This document shows, one piece after another, positions 5,082-43,312 of a DNA stretch of 64,000 nucleotides. The DNA is from Bacteroidota bacterium. GTDB lineage: Bacteria; Bacteroidota; Bacteroidia; Chitinophagales; Chitinophagaceae. The position numbers were made by a program, and so were the translations under genes. The stretch is from contig JAGWWM010000006.1 in the NCBI GenBank assembly GCA_018970395.1, forward strand, positions 1 to 64,000, in the 5' to 3' direction. Position 1 is the first letter of the stretch. Each line of letters begins with the position of its first letter. Under the pieces are notes generated by a model. That model was not told the DNA's origin. It was given only the letters and a program-made list of their open reading frames with translations, and ran no database searches.

Positions 5082-6422
5082 TCACGCTTCTCTTTCCGGA
5101 TCAAATCCTTCCAGCTCATTGGCTACGGCGGTAAGGAAAGTAGCGCCTAAGCTGCCATCCACAATACGATGATCGTAACTCATGCTGATATACATCATGT
5201 GGCGAATGGCAATACTATCACCATGTGGTGTTTCAATAACGACGGGTCTTTTCTTGATCGTACCTGCTGCGAGAATAGCTACCTGCGGCTGATTGATAAT
5301 AGGCGTACCCATGAGACTTCCAAAAGTTCCTACATTGGTGAAGGTGAAAGTGCCACCTTGTGTATCATCAGCTTTAAGTTTTCCGTTGCGTGCGGCATCA
5401 GCCAACTGATTCACCTGACGCGCCAATCCGGATAAGTTGAGTTGTCCTGCATTTTTAATCACAGGTACAATCAAATTGCCGGAGGGCAACGCTGTGGCCA
5501 TGCCCAGATTAATATCTTTCTTCACGATGATTTTATCACCGTCAATTGAACTGTTCATCAGCGGGTATTTTTTCAGGCACTTTACAATCGCCTCAATGAT
5601 AAGCGGCGTAAAGGTGAGCTTGGTTCCTTCATGTTTTTCAAATGTTTTTTTCATCCGCTCACGCCATTGTACCAGATTGGTAACATCGGCTTCTGAGAAA
5701 CTGGTTACGTGTGGACTGGTATGCTTGCTCTTCACCATATGATCGGCAATCAGTTTACGCATCCGATCCATTTCAATAATTTCCACATTTCCACTATACG
5801 ATACCGGTGCGGGAGCAGCAGGAGTTGCGGTAACTGCAGGTTGTGCAGGAGGCGTAACGGCAGGAACATTTTCTCTGACCGAAGTATTGGTGATACCTTT
5901 TTTACGTTGACCTACATAATCCAGAATGTCTTTTTTGGTAACTCTTCCTTCATTGCCGGTACCGGGGATGGTTTCCAGCTCTGTCATCGAAATTCCTTCC
6001 TGCCCTGCGATATTCAGTACAAGCGGAGAATAAAAACGAATGGACGCTGATGGTGTAACGGCAGCGCCTACCGGTTGATAAGGAATATCCTGTGTAGTAC
6101 TCAAAGGAGTTGTTTCTTTCGCTGGCGGGGGAGGAGTGGTCGCGGGTGCTGCATGAACAACAGGGGCTGCACTTGCTGCTGCTTCATTTTCCAAACGGGC
6201 AATCACGGCACCTACTGCCACCACATCATTTTCTTTGAATAAAATTTCTTTGATTACGCCACTGGCTGTGCTAGGAACTTCACTGTCAACCTTGTCGGTA
6301 GCAATATCCAATAAGGTCTCATCGGCTTTGATGGTATCGCCGGGTTGCTTATGCCACTTTAAAATGGTGGCCTCCATAATACTTTCTCCCATCTTGGGCA
6401 TCACAATGTCAATAGTAGCCAT
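5082..6422 (-). CDS. 2-oxo acid dehydrogenase complex E2 (dihydrolipoyl acyltransferase)
   Basis: E2 core of a pyruvate- or branched-chain-type 2-oxoacid dehydrogenase complex. Domain order: N-terminal lipoyl domain (1-78) with the lipoyl lysine in DIATDKVDSEVPS; an Ala/Pro/Thr-rich hinge; peripheral subunit-binding domain (about 128-170, FYSPLVLNIAGQEGISM ... GRVTKKDIL); a second Pro/Ala linker; and the catalytic acyltransferase domain (about 215-446) with the active-site motif YDHRIVDGSLGATFL. The motif set does not decide between the acetyl, branched-chain and succinyl forms. No E1 or E3 gene is next to it, so the complex is not encoded as one operon here. Confidence 0.92.
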   Translation of the reverse strand: MATIDIVMPKMGESIMEATILKWHKQPGDTIKADETLLDIATDKVDSEVPSTASGVIKEILFKENDVVAVGAVIARLENEAAASAAPVVHAAPATTPPPPAKETTPLSTTQDIPYQPVGAAVTPSASIRFYSPLVLNIAGQEGISMTELETIPGTGNEGRVTKKDILDYVGQRKKGITNTSVRENVPAVTPPAQPAVTATPAAPAPVSYSGNVEIIEMDRMRKLIADHMVKSKHTSPHVTSFSEADVTNLVQWRERMKKTFEKHEGTKLTFTPLIIEAIVKCLKKYPLMNSSIDGDKIIVKKDINLGMATALPSGNLIVPVIKNAGQLNLSGLARQVNQLADAARNGKLKADDTQGGTFTFTNVGTFGSLMGTPIINQPQVAILAAGTIKKRPVVIETPHGDSIAIRHMMYISMSYDHRIVDGSLGATFLTAVANELEGFDPEREA

Positions 6423-6563
6423 ATCAGTAATTGAATATAAAGTTAATTTACAATCGACAGCTCGTTGCCCTACAGGAATTCAAGCATATCAAATCGGTTG
6501 GCACCTACCCGTTGGCTAAGCAATGCTGTTAACGCCGCAAATGTAAAGATTTGTAGTGATTAT

Positions 6564-7793
6564 TCAGGGTTCGGAACGAATAAATTGAAGTAACAACAGA
6601 ACTGCCTGAACCGCAGTAAGCTGTATGTTGCGCTGGCGGTCAAATCTGAAATGAAAGGACTTGGTAACATGTTGTTGTGCCGAACCTGCTGCTACCCAAA
6701 CTGTACCTACAGGTTTCTCTTCGCTTCCTCCTCTCGGCCCCATGATACCCGAAACGGCAATGCCATAATCAGCGCCTGTCTGTTCGAGCAATCCGTTAAG
6801 CATGGCAGTTACAGTTTCTTCGCTTACCGCACCCTTTGTTTCAAGCAAGTTCTTGCTGACATTCAACAACCCGGTTTTAATAGAATTGTCATAAGCAATC
6901 ACAGACCCTTTGTAAAAGCCGCTTGCGCCCGCCATACTGGTGAACAGATGTGCAATATAACCTCCCGTACAACTTTCTGCGGTAGCTATTGTTTTGTTTT
7001 TGGCTAACAACAAATCTCCCAAAGCTTTTTCCGGCATGGCATCTGCTGCAATGACTAATAAATCGCTTACAAGATCTTGCAGCTCCTCAAATTTTTTTTC
7101 AGTCAATCTTTCAATATCACTATCAATCCGGTCTCTGCCGGTCAGTCGCAACCGTACCATTCCATAATTGGGAAGATAAGCCAGCTTAATTGTTTCAGGT
7201 AAATCTGCTTCCCAGTTTTGTAATCTTTCTGCAATAAACGATTCCCCGGCTCCGGCTGTAAGCAGGGTTCGGTGAATGATGGTACTTGTTTTCTGTTTTG
7301 TTTGAAGCAGCGGCAATACCTTTTCTGTCACTATCCCTTTCATTTCATGCGGCACTCCGGGCAATGAAACAATGATTTTATTGGTTCCATTTTCTCCTTT
7401 CTTTTCAAACCACATGCCTGGTGCAGTGCCTTTCTGATTCATCAGCACCCTGCAATTGTCGGGCACTTCTGCCTGTTTTAAATTTCTTTCCAGCAGCGGT
7501 CGTTTGAGGATATGTTGAAAAATATGGGTAACATGCTGCAATACTTTTTCATCGGTTATCATTTTACCTCCGAAATATTCACAGAGCAAAGGCTTGGTAA
7601 TATCATCGGCGGTAGGCCCTAATCCGCCAGTAATCAAAACAATATCTGCGTCGCTTAGCGCTTCATCCAGCGCCTGCTGTATTTCTTTTTTATCATCACC
7701 CACTGCTATTCTTCTTTTTACCCAAATGCCAATGGCATTCAATTGCTGCGCCATCCAGGCACTATTGGTGTCAATGGTTTGTCCGATCAGCAA
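6564..7793 (-). CDS. cinA: CinA family protein (nicotinamide-nucleotide amidohydrolase / ADP-ribose pyrophosphatase), start unresolved
   Basis: Two-domain CinA: an N-terminal molybdopterin-binding-like domain and a C-terminal NMN-deamidase domain (about 250-409) with ATAESCTGGYIAHL and KGAVSEETV. The interval given starts at a TTG (7793), but homology clearly continues upstream in frame: codons up to 7823 encode NAILITIGDE, which completes the conserved TIGDELLIGQ opening of the family. No ATG, GTG or TTG occurs in that extension; it is closed by a stop at 7857-7859, leaving only rare codons (ATT at 7850, ATC at 7847, CTC at 7826). The stop and the codons just after it belong to an AT-word repeat (7845-7877), so the original start codon may have been overwritten. 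The rest of the protein looks intact. Confidence 0.88.
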   Translation of the reverse strand: MLIGQTIDTNSAWMAQQLNAIGIWVKRRIAVGDDKKEIQQALDEALSDADIVLITGGLGPTADDITKPLLCEYFGGKMITDEKVLQHVTHIFQHILKRPLLERNLKQAEVPDNCRVLMNQKGTAPGMWFEKKGENGTNKIIVSLPGVPHEMKGIVTEKVLPLLQTKQKTSTIIHRTLLTAGAGESFIAERLQNWEADLPETIKLAYLPNYGMVRLRLTGRDRIDSDIERLTEKKFEELQDLVSDLLVIAADAMPEKALGDLLLAKNKTIATAESCTGGYIAHLFTSMAGASGFYKGSVIAYDNSIKTGLLNVSKNLLETKGAVSEETVTAMLNGLLEQTGADYGIAVSGIMGPRGGSEEKPVGTVWVAAGSAQQHVTKSFHFRFDRQRNIQLTAVQAVLLLLQFIRSEP

Positions 7794-7844
7794 TTCATCG
7801 CCGATGGTGATGAGGATGGCATTGAGGGAGGAGGAATGATGATT

Positions 7845-7877
7845 GATAATTAGTAATTAATAATTAAGAATTAATAA
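7845..7877. repeat. AT-word repeat between the thioesterase gene and cinA
   Basis: Permutations of AATTAGTAATTAATAATTAAG. It overlaps the last codons and stop of the upstream thioesterase gene (ends ATT ATT AAT TCT TAA) and reaches the in-frame upstream extension of cinA, so it lies on both gene boundaries. Confidence 0.7.
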
Positions 7878-8289
7878 TAGAGGGGAATGCGTTCTTTAAT
7901 TGAGTTGCCAACAGATCCGGCATTTTCGTTTTTGCTTTGTCTGCAGCATTGATAAAATACAACAGTACGGAACCGGTTGTGAGCAATTTTCCTGCTTCAT
8001 TATATACTTCGTGATGAAAACGAATCCGATGATCAGATGGCCACTCTTTTAAAATGGTCACTACTTTCAGAAGATCGTCATAATGAGCGGGACGAAGGAA
8101 TTTGATATCGAGTTCCACTACGGGCATAAGAATACCATTGTTTTCAATATCACGGTAAGTAATACCCAGTGAACGAATAGCTTCGCCTCTTGCAGCTTCA
8201 AAATAAGCCGCATAATGTCCGTGATATACCACGCCCATCTGATCGGTTTCTGCATATTTTACCCGGATATTCGTTGCTGCTGTAAACAT
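7864..8289 (-). CDS. Acyl-CoA thioesterase, YbgC/4HBT hotdog family
   Basis: A 141-residue single hotdog domain. The catalytic segment YAETDQMGVVYHGHYAAYFE (residues 10-29) contains the family Asp and the helix-capping HGHY typical of YbgC-type 4-hydroxybenzoyl-CoA-like thioesterases. It probably hydrolyses acyl-CoA thioesters; the substrate cannot be read from sequence. It starts 3 bp from the stop of the DoxX gene on the same strand, so the two are probably co-transcribed, with cinA next. Its last residues (SIINS) come from an AT-word repeat, so the natural C-terminus may have been altered. Confidence 0.9.
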   Translation of the reverse strand: MFTAATNIRVKYAETDQMGVVYHGHYAAYFEAARGEAIRSLGITYRDIENNGILMPVVELDIKFLRPAHYDDLLKVVTILKEWPSDHRIRFHHEVYNEAGKLLTTGSVLLYFINAADKAKTKMPDLLATQLKNAFPSIINS

Positions 8290-35992: not shown

Positions 35993-36681
35993 TGCGGTAT
36001 TTATTATTTATGTTACTGGCTGTTCCTCAAGTTTTGCCGGCACAGCCAAGACCAAAAGAAGGTGTGTGGTTGACATTAAATGCGCCAATAGATCTTTCTT
36101 CCAAATGGCAGATACATAACGATTACAGTTTTCGTACACTAAGTATGTCTGCCAATCCTTTGCAATATTTATTTCGCAGCGGTTTACGTTATCGTGTGAA
36201 TGATCAATTTTCAGTAGCTGCCGGGGTGGCATTAGTGATTACGCGCACTAGTTTTAATAAAGACAATCAGGAGTTTGGAAATGAGTTTCGTGTCTGGCAG
36301 GAGGTGCTGAGAAAATATGTTGTCAGTCCCAAAACCAATCTTCAGCTCCGCTTTCGCGCAGAGCAGCGATTTTTTGAAGCCACCAAAAGAAGAGATGATT
36401 TTGTAGCGAATCGATTTCGAATACGAATCAATTGGCATCAGGATATTTCCGAATATTTTAGTCTCATATTAGCGGAAGAATACATGCAACAGTATGCGCA
36501 GCATGATTTTGTGTTTGATCAGAATAGGTTGATCACGGCATTGGGCTGTCATTTGGATCGTACTAGTCAATTGCAATTTGGTTATATGTGGTTTTTATTG
36601 CCGCAGCAAACAAGTCAGCATATTTTAAATATTACTTTTCAGAAAAGATTTCAGTTATATGGAAAAAACAAAAGAGCTTAA
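35992..36681 (+). CDS. DUF2490 outer-membrane-like protein
   Basis: A 229-residue protein with a signal peptide (MRYLLFMLLAVPQVLPAQ) and beta-rich barrel-like sequence (WQIHNDYSFRTL, QLRFRAEQRFFE, FRIRINWHQDIS), matching DUF2490. The ATG at 35992 overlaps the hemB stop by one base; an open frame further upstream lies inside hemB and lacks a signal peptide, so it is rejected. Function unknown. Its place between hemB and the siroheme/TauE gene, with overlaps on both sides, suggests co-translation with tetrapyrrole genes, perhaps an outer-membrane step, but that is inference. Confidence 0.82.
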   Translation: MRYLLFMLLAVPQVLPAQPRPKEGVWLTLNAPIDLSSKWQIHNDYSFRTLSMSANPLQYLFRSGLRYRVNDQFSVAAGVALVITRTSFNKDNQEFGNEFRVWQEVLRKYVVSPKTNLQLRFRAEQRFFEATKRRDDFVANRFRIRINWHQDISEYFSLILAEEYMQQYAQHDFVFDQNRLITALGCHLDRTSQLQFGYMWFLLPQQTSQHILNITFQKRFQLYGKNKRA

Positions 36682-38146
36682 GAATCATTTGTATCCGGTT
36701 TTTTTGAAATTGGATCAGTTACGATTGTTGCTGGTAGGGGCCGGTAATGTCGGACTGGAAAAGCTGGAATCCCTTCTTGCCAACGCGCCGCGTACCGCCA
36801 TTACGATTGTGGCACCGTTGGTGCGGGAAGAAGTGCGCAACTATCTGAAAGATTTTCCCGAATGTAAAGTGTATGAGCGCCGATTTGAAGACGCAGATCT
36901 GAATGAAAAGGATTTGGTCATACTGGCAACGGATGATAAGGAATTACATAAGCATATCCGCACGCAATGCAAAGAGAAACGCATTTTGATCAATGTGGCT
37001 GATACACCTGAGTTGTGCGATTTTTATCTCGGCAGCATTGTGCAGAAAGGAAATTTGAAGATTGCGATTTCTACCAATGGAAAATCTCCCACTGCGGCGA
37101 AACGAATCAAGCAAGTGTTGAATGAATCATTGCCTGAAGAGATTGATGAGGTGCTGGAAAATCTGCATACGTTCCGCAATACCATCAAAGGAGATTTTCA
37201 GCAGAAGGTGAAGAAGATGAATGCCGTTACGAAGGGATTGGTGGAAAATGATGCAGCTGCCACTGAGAAGCGGTGGAAAAAAATCGCCACTTATTTCCTG
37301 ATGGCCTTCGGTTTCATGCTGGTAGGACATTTTATTTTTTCGTACATACCCTTTAGACAGATCGCTACGGATGCGGTGAATTGGTATCAGTCATTGGATC
37401 CTGACATCCCGTTACACTGGATTGTATTGGCGGGCTTTTGTGCGCAATTGGTGGATGGCGCTTTGGGGATGGGGTATGGAGTCACCAGCACATCTATCAT
37501 GTTGTCAACCGGCATGAGTCCGGCCGCTATCAGCGGCAGTATTCATACCTCTGAAGTATTTTCAAGTGCTGTGTCAGGCTACAGTCATTATCGTTTCGGA
37601 AATGTCAATAAGAAATTATTTAAAGCCCTGGTGATACCCGGTGTGATTGGGGCCGCTGTGGGTGCTGTTTTTTTAGTAGTAATGGGAGATGAGTATAGCA
37701 AGTGGTTGCGTCCGGCTATAGCGGTATATACGATGTTGCTCGGAATAAAATTCATCATCAATGCATTCCGGGAGATGAAGCCGCAGAAGAAGTTCAAACA
37801 TTATCGCATACTGGCAGCTTTCGGTGGATTTTTTGATTCATTCGGCGGCGGGGGATGGGGACCTATTGTGACTTCAACACTGATCAATAACGGCAGAAGT
37901 CATAAGTATGTAGTGGGGTCAGTCAGTCTGACTGAATTTTTCATCACGCTTGCAAGTGCTTTTACCTTCTTTACCATGATCGGTGTCAGTCACTGGCATT
38001 ATATCGTTGCACTCATGCTGGGTAGTTTTATTGCAGCCCCCATAGCTGCGAAACTGGCAGGCAGGTTGCAAAAGAAAACGGCTTATTTTTTACTAGGGAT
38101 ACTGGTGATTATTTGGAGCGTGCGGATACTGATCAAAATTTTGTAA
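36659..38146 (+). CDS. Fusion of precorrin-2 dehydrogenase (siroheme synthase N-domain) and TauE/SafE permease
   Basis: A 495-residue two-part protein. Residues about 8-205 are the CysG-N/Met8p-type domain: LRLLLVGAGNVGLEKLESLL (NAD-binding), then VILATDDKELHKHIR, INVADTPELCDFYLGSIV and ISTNGKSPTAAKRIKQ, which make siroheme from precorrin-2. Residues about 225-495 are a TauE/SafE (TSUP) permease with eight or so helices, including QLVDGALGMGYGVTST and GGFFDSFGGGGWGPIVTS. TSUP members export sulfite or sulfonates. The fusion links siroheme supply to sulfite transport, matching the divergent sulfite reductase. It starts 23 bp inside the DUF2490 gene. Confidence 0.9.
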   Translation: MEKTKELKNHLYPVFLKLDQLRLLLVGAGNVGLEKLESLLANAPRTAITIVAPLVREEVRNYLKDFPECKVYERRFEDADLNEKDLVILATDDKELHKHIRTQCKEKRILINVADTPELCDFYLGSIVQKGNLKIAISTNGKSPTAAKRIKQVLNESLPEEIDEVLENLHTFRNTIKGDFQQKVKKMNAVTKGLVENDAAATEKRWKKIATYFLMAFGFMLVGHFIFSYIPFRQIATDAVNWYQSLDPDIPLHWIVLAGFCAQLVDGALGMGYGVTSTSIMLSTGMSPAAISGSIHTSEVFSSAVSGYSHYRFGNVNKKLFKALVIPGVIGAAVGAVFLVVMGDEYSKWLRPAIAVYTMLLGIKFIINAFREMKPQKKFKHYRILAAFGGFFDSFGGGGWGPIVTSTLINNGRSHKYVVGSVSLTEFFITLASAFTFFTMIGVSHWHYIVALMLGSFIAAPIAAKLAGRLQKKTAYFLLGILVIIWSVRILIKIL

Positions 38147-39586: not shown

Positions 39587-40516
39587 TTAAAGCGTCTTCA
39601 ACACGTCATTCATGCTGCGGACCGCATCTGCGCTTTTATTGAAAGCAGCCTGCTCTTCCGTATTCAGTTCGAAGTCAATGATTTTCTCCCAACCGTTTCT
39701 GCCAATGGTAACGGGTACGCCCAGGCAAATATCTTTTTGTCCGTATTCTCCTTCGAGGGCGACGCAGCAAGTGAATAATTTTTTCTCATCTCTCAAAATG
39801 CTTTCTACCAAAGCCGCTCCGGCAGCACCGGGCGCATACCAGGCACTGGTACCGATTAATGCGGTCAAAGTAGCGCCCCCTACCATGGTATCTTTTACAA
39901 TTTTATCTTGTTGCTCTTGAGATAAGAATTTTGTTACCGGTACTGAGTTCCATGTTGCCATCCGAATCAAAGGAATCATAGTCGTATCTCCATGTCCGCC
40001 TACCACCACTGCATTTAAATCGGAGGGAGAACAACCCAGATGCTGACTCAATTGATACTTAAAGCGACTACTGTCGAGCGTACCACCCATACCAATGATG
40101 CGGTTTTTGGGAAGTCCGGTAGAAGTCAGTGCCAGATAAGTCATAGTATCCATTGGGTTGCTGATGACAATGATAATCGCATTGGGAGAATATTTTAATA
40201 CATTCTCACAAACGCTTTTAACGATACCGGCATTAACGCCAATCAGTTCTTCCCGAGTCATACCGGGTTTTCTGGGAAGTCCGGAAGTAATCACGACCAC
40301 ATCGCTGTTCGCAGTTTTGGAATAATCATTGGTACTGCCTACGATTTTGGTGTCGAATCCCAACAGGGTGGCCGTCTGTATCATGTCCTGCGCTTTCCCT
40401 TCTGCAACACCTTCTTTAATGTCTAACAAAACCAGTTCTGAACACAATTCTTTGCGGGCAATATTGTCTGCACATGTGGCGCCTACCGCACCTGCCCCTA
40501 CTACTGTTACTTTCAT
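39587..40516 (-). CDS. mdh: Malate dehydrogenase (LDH-like type)
   Basis: NAD-dependent TCA enzyme, 309 residues, of the lactate-dehydrogenase-like MDH group. NAD motif VTVVGAGAVGATCADNIA at the N-terminus; substrate arginines in GLPRKPGMTREEL; the DSSRFKYQLS segment; the catalytic histidine in VVGGHGDTTMIPL. All are intact. It is a single-gene unit with its own terminator, divergent from efp. Confidence 0.96.
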   Translation of the reverse strand: MKVTVVGAGAVGATCADNIARKELCSELVLLDIKEGVAEGKAQDMIQTATLLGFDTKIVGSTNDYSKTANSDVVVITSGLPRKPGMTREELIGVNAGIVKSVCENVLKYSPNAIIIVISNPMDTMTYLALTSTGLPKNRIIGMGGTLDSSRFKYQLSQHLGCSPSDLNAVVVGGHGDTTMIPLIRMATWNSVPVTKFLSQEQQDKIVKDTMVGGATLTALIGTSAWYAPGAAGAALVESILRDEKKLFTCCVALEGEYGQKDICLGVPVTIGRNGWEKIIDFELNTEEQAAFNKSADAVRSMNDVLKTL

Positions 40517-40686: not shown

Positions 40687-41253
40687 ATGGCAAATACATC
40701 CGACATCAGCCGTGGCATGATAATAAAAATCGACGGCAGCTTATACAAGGTGATTGAATTTGGTGAAAATAAAACTGCCCGTGCGGCAGCTAAGGTTTGG
40801 GCTAAACTTAAAGGAGTGGATAATTCCCGCACGATTGAACAAACCTGGAATAGTGGTGACACCATTTATCCGGTGAGAGTAGAGCGGAAAGATTTCCAGT
40901 TCCTGTATAAAGATGATACCGGATATAATTTTATGAACAATGAAAGTTTTGAGCAGATTTCAGTGGAAGAAGGCTTAATTGACGCTCCTCAGTTTTTAAA
41001 GGAAGGCGATCAGGTTTCTGCTTTAATCAATACCGAAACTGATTCGCCGATGAGCGTGGAGCTCCCCGATAAAATTGTAGTAAAGGTTACTTACAGTGAG
41101 CCCGGCGTAAAAGGGGATACTGCAACACGTACTTTAAAACCGGCGACAGTTGAAACCGGTGCGACGGTAATGGTGCCCTTGTTTGTGAATGAAGGAGAAC
41201 TGATCAGAATCAACACTAAATCAGGAGAATACGTAGAAAGGGTGAAAGAATAA
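40687..41253 (+). CDS. efp: Translation elongation factor P with arginine at the tip (Arg32)
   Basis: Relieves ribosome stalling at polyproline. 188 residues from the ATG at 40687; an open frame upstream to 40576 runs through the promoter and repeat, so it is not used. Three EF-P domains are present, ending in the signature-like FVNEGELIRINTKSGEYVERV. The beta3-beta4 tip, normally PGKG with a modified lysine, reads NKTARAAAKVW here, with Arg at residue 32. This aligns without gaps to NKSGRNAAVVK of Pseudomonas aeruginosa EF-P, whose Arg32 is rhamnosylated by EarP. No EarP, EpmA or EpmB gene is in the window. Confidence 0.95.
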   Translation: MANTSDISRGMIIKIDGSLYKVIEFGENKTARAAAKVWAKLKGVDNSRTIEQTWNSGDTIYPVRVERKDFQFLYKDDTGYNFMNNESFEQISVEEGLIDAPQFLKEGDQVSALINTETDSPMSVELPDKIVVKVTYSEPGVKGDTATRTLKPATVETGATVMVPLFVNEGELIRINTKSGEYVERVKE

Positions 41254-41389: not shown

Positions 41390-41875
41390 ATGGACATTAA
41401 ACAGGTGCAGGAATTGATTAAGCTTGTAAGCAAATCGAGCCTGAGTGAATTAACGATTGAAGAAGGAGATTTTAAAATTACTTTAAAACAAAAAGAGGAT
41501 GTAGTTCCGCAAGCTTATGTGAGTGCTCCGGTAATGGCAGCTCCTGTTGCTGTTGCACCCGCTCCTTCAGCAGTTCCTGCAGCTGCTCCTGTGGCTTCTA
41601 CGCCTGCAGCTTCGGCAGCTGAGGATACTTCCAAATATATTACTATTAAGAGTCCCATGATTGGAACTTTTTACCGCAAACCCTCTCCGGATAAACCGCT
41701 TTATGTAGAAGTGGGAGATGAGATTGTTCCAGGTAAAGTGGTTTGTATCATTGAAGCGATGAAACTGTTCAATGAAATCGAGAGCGAAGTAAAAGGAAGA
41801 GTAGTGAAAGTGCTGGTAGAGGATCAGTCGCCGGTCGAATATGATCAGCCTTTATTCCTGGTGGATCCCAGTTAA
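41390..41875 (+). CDS. accB: Biotin carboxyl carrier protein of acetyl-CoA carboxylase
   Basis: 161 residues: an N-terminal helical/strand segment (1-38) that contacts the carboxylase, an Ala/Pro-rich linker (about 40-78) and a biotinyl domain (about 82-161). The biotinylated lysine is K125 in IEAMKLFNEIES (the more common form is EAMKLMNEIE). It carries biotin between AccC and the carboxyltransferase in fatty acid synthesis. accC follows 100 bp downstream across an AT-word repeat, the usual accBC pairing. Confidence 0.96.
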   Translation: MDIKQVQELIKLVSKSSLSELTIEEGDFKITLKQKEDVVPQAYVSAPVMAAPVAVAPAPSAVPAAAPVASTPAASAAEDTSKYITIKSPMIGTFYRKPSPDKPLYVEVGDEIVPGKVVCIIEAMKLFNEIESEVKGRVVKVLVEDQSPVEYDQPLFLVDPS

Positions 41876-41974: not shown

Positions 41975-43312
41975 ATGTTCAAGAAAATATTAATTGCCAA
42001 TCGGGGTGAAATTGCTTTGCGTGTCATTCGTACTTGTCGAGAAATGGGCATTCGTACGGTGGCGGTTTATTCTACTGCTGATAAGGAAAGTCTGCACGTA
42101 AAATTTGCGGATGAGGCGGTATGTATCGGAAAACCGCAAGGTTCTGAGTCTTATTTGAATATCCCCAATATCATTGCTGCGGCGGAAATTACCAATGCCG
42201 ATGCCATTCACCCGGGCTATGGATTTTTAGCGGAAAATGCCAAGTTTTCTGAGATCTGTGGACTTAGTGGCATCAAATTCATTGGTCCAACTCCCGAACA
42301 GATTCGTAAAATGGGAGATAAAATTACTGCTAAAGAAACCATGATCAAAGCAGGCGTACCGGTGGTGCCGGGTGGGGAAGGATTGCTGGAAAGTCTGGAG
42401 CAGGCAAAATATTTGGCTAAAGAAATCGGTTATCCGGTGATTTTGAAGGCTACTGCCGGTGGCGGTGGAAAGGGGATGAGAGTGGTATGGACAGAGGATG
42501 AGTTGGAGCGTAATTACAATATGGCTAAAACAGAGGCTGGTGCTGCATTTAAGAATGATGGCATTTACATGGAGAAATTCGTGGAAGAGCCCCGTCATAT
42601 TGAAATACAGGTAGCAGGCGATCGTTTTGGTACCGTTTGTCATTTAAGTGAGCGCGATTGTTCCATTCAGAGAAGACATCAGAAATTGGTAGAAGAATCT
42701 CCCTCTCCTTTCATGACACCTGAATTAAGAAAAGCGATGGGAGAAGCTGCGAAAAAAGCTGCTTCTGCTATTGACTATGAAAGTGTAGGTACGATTGAGT
42801 TCCTGGTGGACAAGCACCGCAATTTCTACTTCATGGAAATGAATACGCGTATTCAGGTAGAGCATTGCGTAACGGAGGAAGTCACCAATTTTGATTTGAT
42901 CAAAGAACAAATATTGATTGCGGCCGGCGAAAGAATCAGTGGGAAAGACTATGAGCCCGAAATGCATGCCATTGAATGCCGGATCAATGCGGAAGATCCT
43001 TACAATGATTTTCGTCCTTCTCCCGGTAAAATAACCGTGTTGCATCAGCCCGGTGGTCATGGTATTCGGATAGACAGCCATGTGTATGCCGGCTATGTCA
43101 TTCCTCCCTATTATGATTCTATGATTGCTAAGATTATTGCTGTTGCGCGTACCCGCGAGGAAGCCATCAATACGATGAGCAGAGCTTTAAGCGAGTATGT
43201 GATAGAAGGTGTGAAGACGACGATTCCATTTCACCAGCAATTGATGCGGAATGAGGATTTCAGGAACGGTAATTTTACAACTAAATTTCTTGAAAGTTTT
43301 CAAATGAAGTAA
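41975..43312 (+). CDS. accC: Acetyl-CoA carboxylase biotin carboxylase subunit
   Basis: ATP-grasp enzyme that carboxylates biotin on AccB. 445 residues, normal length. N-terminal domain [23 protein letters not shown]-binding glycine loop [15 protein letters not shown] (about 158-172), catalytic [10 protein letters not shown] (about 288-297) and biotin/bicarbonate residues in [11 protein letters not shown]. All are intact. Last gene of the accBC pair; a GC-rich hairpin and an AT-word repeat follow it. Confidence 0.97.

Follow-up and report, generated by a model that had tools for sequence, protein, structure and literature searches.

A conserved arginine at the tip of a Bacteroidota elongation factor P

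Many elongation factor P proteins (EF-Ps) are thought to require a modified tip, and EarP is, to our knowledge, the one enzyme known to modify an arginine at that position. The occurrence of an arginine-tipped EF-P in a Bacteroidota bacterium of the family Chitinophagaceae raises the question of how this protein works. The gene lies in a 64,000-nucleotide stretch of DNA (the window; contig JAGWWM010000006.1 of assembly GCA_018970395.1), for which an initial annotation had set out three options, i.e. modification by EarP, modification by another enzyme, or activity without modification. These were found to be the right ones to consider, and they are weighed below.

Identification of efp and its tip residue

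The efp gene (positions 40687 to 41253, plus strand) encodes a protein of 188 aa, which matched all three EF-P Pfam domains over cut-off and scored 206.1 bits against the TIGR00038 'efp' model (cut-off 185.8 bits), while its score against the EfpL/YeiP NCBIfam model was far below the cut-off (109.8 vs 216 bits). The assigned start is supported by Met1, which does not vary among 20 sequences, made up of the window and 19 of its relatives. A search of the 2.42-Mb assembly, scored as 100% complete, gave no second EF-P, and thus none of the lysine type, which the initial annotation had named as an objection to its own reading. The best 80 of 385 relatives in named genomes were mostly derived from Chitinophagaceae or Bacteroidota bins and exhibited 80-91% identity; a few of these bins bear odd titles, e.g. 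Williamsia sp. On this basis, the family of the window's genome is taken to be Chitinophagaceae. No relative was found in the viral contigs scanned.

The translated loop reads ENKTARAAAKVW. Its tip is Arg32, encoded by CGT (positions 40780 to 40782, plus strand; codon 32 as read in translation), within the seven-residue β3-β4 loop K29-T-A-R32-A-A-A35 (positions 40771 to 40791, plus strand; codons 29-35, the loop being defined as in the excerpt of PMC6544042). Residue 32 was shown to align gap-free with Arg32 of Thermus EF-P (PDB 1ueb), as well as with the tip lysine or arginine of Lys-type and EarP-type EF-Ps, and no alignment placed a lysine there, the second objection foreseen at the outset. 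The tip was assigned by alignment to solved structures rather than from a predicted model, as the AlphaFold model of the window EF-P was poor in its N-terminal domain (mean pLDDT 60.2, residues 1-63 below 50) and was left unused. Arg32 was present in all 99 same-family sequences read (94 distinct, three being the window itself), and arginine also occupies the tip in 18 further same-family genomes, so that Arg32 is not a sequencing error. The window efp is thus confirmed to encode a genuine EF-P whose loop has Arg32 at its tip, and the initial claim of an arginine-tipped EF-P in Bacteroidota is borne out by the domain and TIGR00038 matches, the gap-free alignment with 1ueb and the invariance of the residue.

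To define what sets this loop apart, the family sequences were compared with 92 Lys-type sequences (82 distinct), which were picked as Lys-type and so carry a tip lysine by construction. Sixteen positions had one residue in at least 97% of the family sequences and showed that residue in at most 10% of the Lys-type sequences; nine of these fall within residues 26-39, corresponding to 9 of 14 positions there and 7 of the 174 others (P=3e-8 by Fisher's test, uncorrected for relatedness). Codons 26-39 (positions 40762 to 40803, plus strand) accordingly delimit the stretch that is rewritten in Chitinophagaceae. At each of positions 28-39, at least 95 of the 99 family sequences agree, while identity across the whole protein goes down to 68%. 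The residue preceding Arg32 is alanine, as opposed to glycine in the four EarP-type loops read.

Distribution of tip residues

Of 198 genomes of the order, 35 belong to the same family, and 34 of these contained the TARAAAKV pattern, which was found in none of the 163 genomes from 21 other families. EF-P could be read in all 35 same-family genomes and had an arginine tip in each, the sole genome without the exact pattern (G465) reading TARAAAKI. A second TARAAAKV match in one genome of the family (G410) lies outside any EF-P. An EF-P match was obtained in 294 of 296 genomes drawn from the phylum and, among the matches listed, identity was at least 68% within the family and at most 53% outside it. 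When the window protein was used to search 17 same-family genomes, each gave exactly one copy.

Across 141 distinct Bacteroidota EF-P sequences, selected for spread and unevenly drawn, the tip was lysine in 89, asparagine in 31, arginine in 18 (17 from the family, plus L192) and glutamine in two, the loop being absent in one. This suggests that the tip has changed several times in Bacteroidota, between lysine, asparagine, arginine and glutamine. The initial description of 'this lineage' as arginine-type consequently holds for Chitinophagaceae, but not for Bacteroidota at large, where mostly lysine and then asparagine tips were read.

The asparagine tip, mostly within PGNLRAFYQ, recurs across many Bacteroidota families (L173, L175, L177, L179-L191 and others). 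Three genomes encode two EF-Ps (L174 in G080; L175 and L176 in G122; L177 and L178 in G214), one with an asparagine tip (PGNLRAFYQ) and one with a lysine tip (HRTPGKGGAFY), arranged in tandem in G080. Genome G196 combines an asparagine-tipped EF-P with an arginine-tipped one (L192, L193), whose QTGRGGAYYQ loop is unlike that of the window's family. The single EF-P match in G348, of the same order, has the loop KMQQRRPIVR with glutamine at the tip position (L169); a double frameshift was considered as the source of this loop and dropped, as the DNA bears no sign of one.

Modifying enzymes

No genome among 147 of the same family, the window's own included, had an EarP (PF10093) match over the Pfam cut-off. 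Matches below the cut-off, with E up to 1, were observed in 12 of the 147; they are partial, the best scoring 14.8 bits (cut-off 25). None of 14 control genomes, which included Thermus composti and Deinobacterium chartae, matched over the cut-off, a sub-cut-off match at E up to 1 being present in the Bacillus subtilis control, and the search is therefore informative through the positive records added to it: Shewanella, Aeromonas and Fusobacterium records were all recovered (3/3) at 350-501 bits (E≤1.2e-104). A fourth added record, a 101-kb Bacteroides plasmid that is not counted among the positive controls, gave no EarP. The excerpt of PMC5615199 names beta- and gammaproteobacteria, along with some Fusobacteria, Planctomycetes and Spirochetes, as the groups in which EarP has been reported. 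As EarP seems to be absent, the Chitinophagaceae EF-P probably works unmodified.

EpmA (TIGR00462) likewise gave no match over the cut-off in 119 genomes from the order, among them those of Lys-type relatives, while 2 of 14 controls passed. Weaker matches were present in all 119, the best of them within open frames of ~500 residues, which are probably lysyl-tRNA synthetases. The beta-lysylation enzyme thus seems to be missing from the Lys-tipped relatives as well, making it plausible that lysine was exchanged for arginine without a change of enzyme.

Arginine tips without EarP are already implied by the literature, as published arginine counts exceed those of EarP: in PMC6544042, 14.75% of 1,166 EF-Ps carry arginine and 100 EarPs were found (~172 vs 100 by our own arithmetic), and an excerpt of PMC2821294 gives 24.1% arginine among EF-Ps of organisms without YjeA/YjeK. 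A literature search covering titles and the beginnings of abstracts, with the Brewer and Wagner 2024 survey outside its scope, returned no paper naming this Chitinophagaceae tip.

Origin of the arginine-type loop

Phylogenetic trees were built without the loop columns (residues 26-41), one being a quick tree of 91 rows and the other a careful tree of 40 rows. In both, the family rows formed a single clade (support 100 and 100/99, respectively) apart from the EarP-types. Next to this clade stand Lys-type EF-Ps from within the order, a placement with modest, unstarred support: SH-aLRT values are 91 and 92 in the 91-row tree, and support is 80/94 in the 40-row tree, where the clade lies inside a Bacteroidota fork supported at 94/94. 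A single clade of the family and the EarP-types was weakly rejected with 40 rows (P=0.04) and not rejected with 91 rows (P=0.50, the tree held to that clade being slightly better); Ilyobacter, labelled 'other' in the 40-row tree, has the loop NKSGRNSA and was counted with the EarP-types in this clade test. A single clade with Thermus EF-P was rejected (P=0.009, 40-row tree).

The body of the family EF-P exhibits 54-55% identity to the nearest of 44 Lys-type rows, 38% to Thermus EF-P and 31-33% to three EarP-types. In the loop, 7 of 16 residues are shared with Thermus, 6-7 with the EarP-types and 6 with 6 of the 44 Lys-type rows, the remaining Lys-type rows sharing fewer.

Downstream of efp in the window are an accB-like gene (biotin carboxyl carrier protein; positions 41390 to 41875, plus strand) and an accC-like gene (biotin carboxylase; positions 41975 to 43312, plus strand), while the divergent neighbour is malate dehydrogenase-like (positions 39587 to 40516, minus strand), all three being named by eye. 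Among 81 stretches (80 family loci, some of them short, and the window), accB was downstream of efp in 74 and accC in 69, and the malate dehydrogenase-like gene was a neighbour in 54. The next commonest neighbour, a thioredoxin-like family named by eye, occurs in 42 and is absent from the window stretch. Outside the family, 61 of 73 loci had accB in the vicinity of efp by our own count; the other 12 comprise 10 from one family of the class (f5), L100 and L149, the last being the nearest Lys-type relative in both trees, with no accB within its 1.5-kb flanks. The position among Lys-types in loop-free trees, together with the mostly retained efp-accB-accC locus, suggests that the loop was changed in place. 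Elsewhere in the window, an ORF at positions 36659 to 38146 (plus strand) appears by eye to fuse an N-terminal part resembling siroheme synthase with a membrane permease of the TSUP type.

Diproline use in arginine-type genomes

Depletion of polyproline was sought in three arginine-type genomes, as compared with three lysine-type genomes of the class, and was not seen. Observed/expected ratios of Pro-Pro were 0.89, 0.71 and 0.81 in the former (G033, G269 and G439) and 0.64, 0.78 and 0.80 in the latter (G206, G249 and G118), as counted in 400 kb (98-114 thousand residues) per genome with a simple ATG-start ORF finder. Pro-Pro-Pro counts were 10, 5 and 13 vs 7, 6 and 14, numbers too small to compare. 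The PPP motif of valyl-tRNA synthetase (ValS) was present in 17 of 17 genomes, 11 of which belong to the family. At one efp locus (L010), a neighbouring ORF at ~6088-7912, M56/BlaR1-like by eye, contains a run of seven prolines; the protein is likely an EF-P client, if expressed.

Proposed function of the unmodified tip and alternative explanations

On the sequence evidence, we think it fairly probable that efp encodes the regular EF-P of Chitinophagaceae, present once and vertically inherited, a protein whose loop was rewritten in place and which works unmodified. In the family's ancestor, a Lys-type EF-P would have exchanged its HVKPGKGxAFVR loop for [E/Q]NKTARAAAKVW, placing arginine instead of lysine at the tip, and Pro-Pro bond formation would be promoted without modification of Arg32. 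The alanine-rich loop, together with Lys36, Trp38 and Ala39, may represent compensating changes. The arginine EF-P of the family would thus have evolved independently and would function without modification.

The proposal that Arg32 is unmodified and active draws on two published arginine tips and on the loop residues shared with them. In E. coli EfpL, Arg33 was found unmodified by mass spectrometry and, in a docking model, is stacked with the cytosines of the CCA end on either side (excerpt of PMC11611912). According to the excerpt of PMC2821294, Arg32 of Thermus contacts C75 and phosphates of the 23S rRNA and represents an adaptation to the missing modification. Published mutants, as given in the excerpt of PMC6544042, indicate what such a tip may demand: unmodified K34R E. 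coli EF-P kept ~20% activity, a Gly-to-Ala change before the tip inactivated E. coli EF-P and impaired the function of P. putida EF-P, and the Arg-tipped EF-P of P. putida or of S. oneidensis, when unmodified, was inhibitory in a reporter. From the Gly-to-Ala mutants and the inhibitory unmodified tips, it follows that an unmodified A-R-A loop would need compensating changes, for which candidates appear to be present in the family loop.

Alternatively, Arg32 could be modified by a Chitinophagaceae-specific enzyme unrelated to EarP, with the rewritten loop as its recognition site. In favour of this, the arginine EF-Ps for which the excerpt of PMC5615199 gives an enzyme are rhamnosylated, and the near-invariance of residues 28-39 in an otherwise variable protein is in keeping with such a site, although contact with the ribosome would equally predict a fixed loop. 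Only accB, accC and the malate dehydrogenase-like gene are shared near efp by more than 42 of the 81 stretches, a survey of the efp neighbourhood alone, to which a remote gene is invisible. We consider such an enzyme unlikely, though worth keeping in view; that Chitinophagaceae possess an undescribed arginine-modifying system, representing a third chemistry in addition to the extension of lysine and the rhamnosylation of arginine, and having TARAAAKVW as its recognition site, seems rather unlikely.

That the loop arrived on a short recombination tract (~48 bp), with another phylum's arginine-type EF-P as its source, and not by point changes, is quite improbable. Segment 26-41 is the only one closest to Thermus and EarP-type rows, while those on either side (1-25 and 42-63) most resemble Bacteroidota Lys-types. 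However, this likeness is at best 7 of 16 columns, the 6 of 16 reached by some Lys-type rows equals that of Shewanella, TARAAAKVW was found in none of the non-Bacteroidota rows compared, and convergence on an Arg-compatible loop would explain the likeness equally well.

Rhamnosylation of Arg32 by a diverged EarP, or by a different TDP-rhamnose transferase that escaped the model, is very improbable. The gap-free alignment with EarP-type loops and the sub-cut-off matches could be taken in its favour, but these matches are partial, and even the best is remote in score from true EarPs, that of Fusobacterium included. The P. putida G31A variant bears on both sides, being rhamnosylated in vitro at <1% of the wild-type rate and yet fully modified in vivo when EarP is overproduced (excerpt of PMC6544042), so that alanine at position -1 alone does not bar EarP. 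The EarP option, to which comparison with Pseudomonas had pointed in the initial annotation, is not supported: a working search found the enzyme over cut-off neither in the genome itself nor in any of the 147 same-family genomes, alanine stands where EarP-type loops have glycine, and the body is closer to Bacteroidota Lys-types. Degeneration of EF-P into a protein that does little, as loss of the canonical lysine, proline and glycine residues of the tip might suggest, is very improbable in view of its conservation in 99 sequences, its single copy in 17 of 17 same-family genomes, undepleted diproline use and the retained ValS PPP motif.

With an arginine swapped into a Lys-type body and neither EarP nor EpmA over cut-off, the family represents a natural test of how an EF-P tip can act unmodified; otherwise, its arginine tip points to a new arginine-modifying enzyme.

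Comparison with known EF-P systems

The window EF-P shares with the EarP-dependent arginine EF-Ps of Pseudomonas, Shewanella, Aeromonas and Fusobacterium an arginine tip, a seven-residue loop that aligns without gaps and the lack of proline at position -2. It differs in the absence of an EarP over cut-off from its family, in alanine rather than glycine at position -1 and in reading K-T-A-R-A-A-A in place of the S-G-R-N-type loop. EpmA-modified Lys-type EF-Ps are not matched, as the window tip is arginine and no EpmA was detected over cut-off.

EfpL/YeiP has T-A-R-[A/G]-A-A at the tip in common with the window protein, EfpL reading TARGAA with alanine before the arginine; the window loop, however, is not extended and lacks proline at position -3, and its protein is the only EF-P found in the genome rather than a paralog. 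Thermus EF-P (1ueb) shares the Arg32 tip and the A-K-V-x-A-K that follows it, whereas its loop reads LGRGG instead of TARAA and its union with the family in one clade was rejected. The window family resembles the Thermus kind in combining an arginine tip with the absence of EarP over cut-off; T. composti and D. chartae gave no EarP match, the arginine tip being that of 1ueb. The closest body and, for the most part, the same efp-accB-accC locus are those of the same-order Lys-type EF-Ps with their PGKG loop, of which the tip lysine and most of residues 26-39 have been replaced in Chitinophagaceae.
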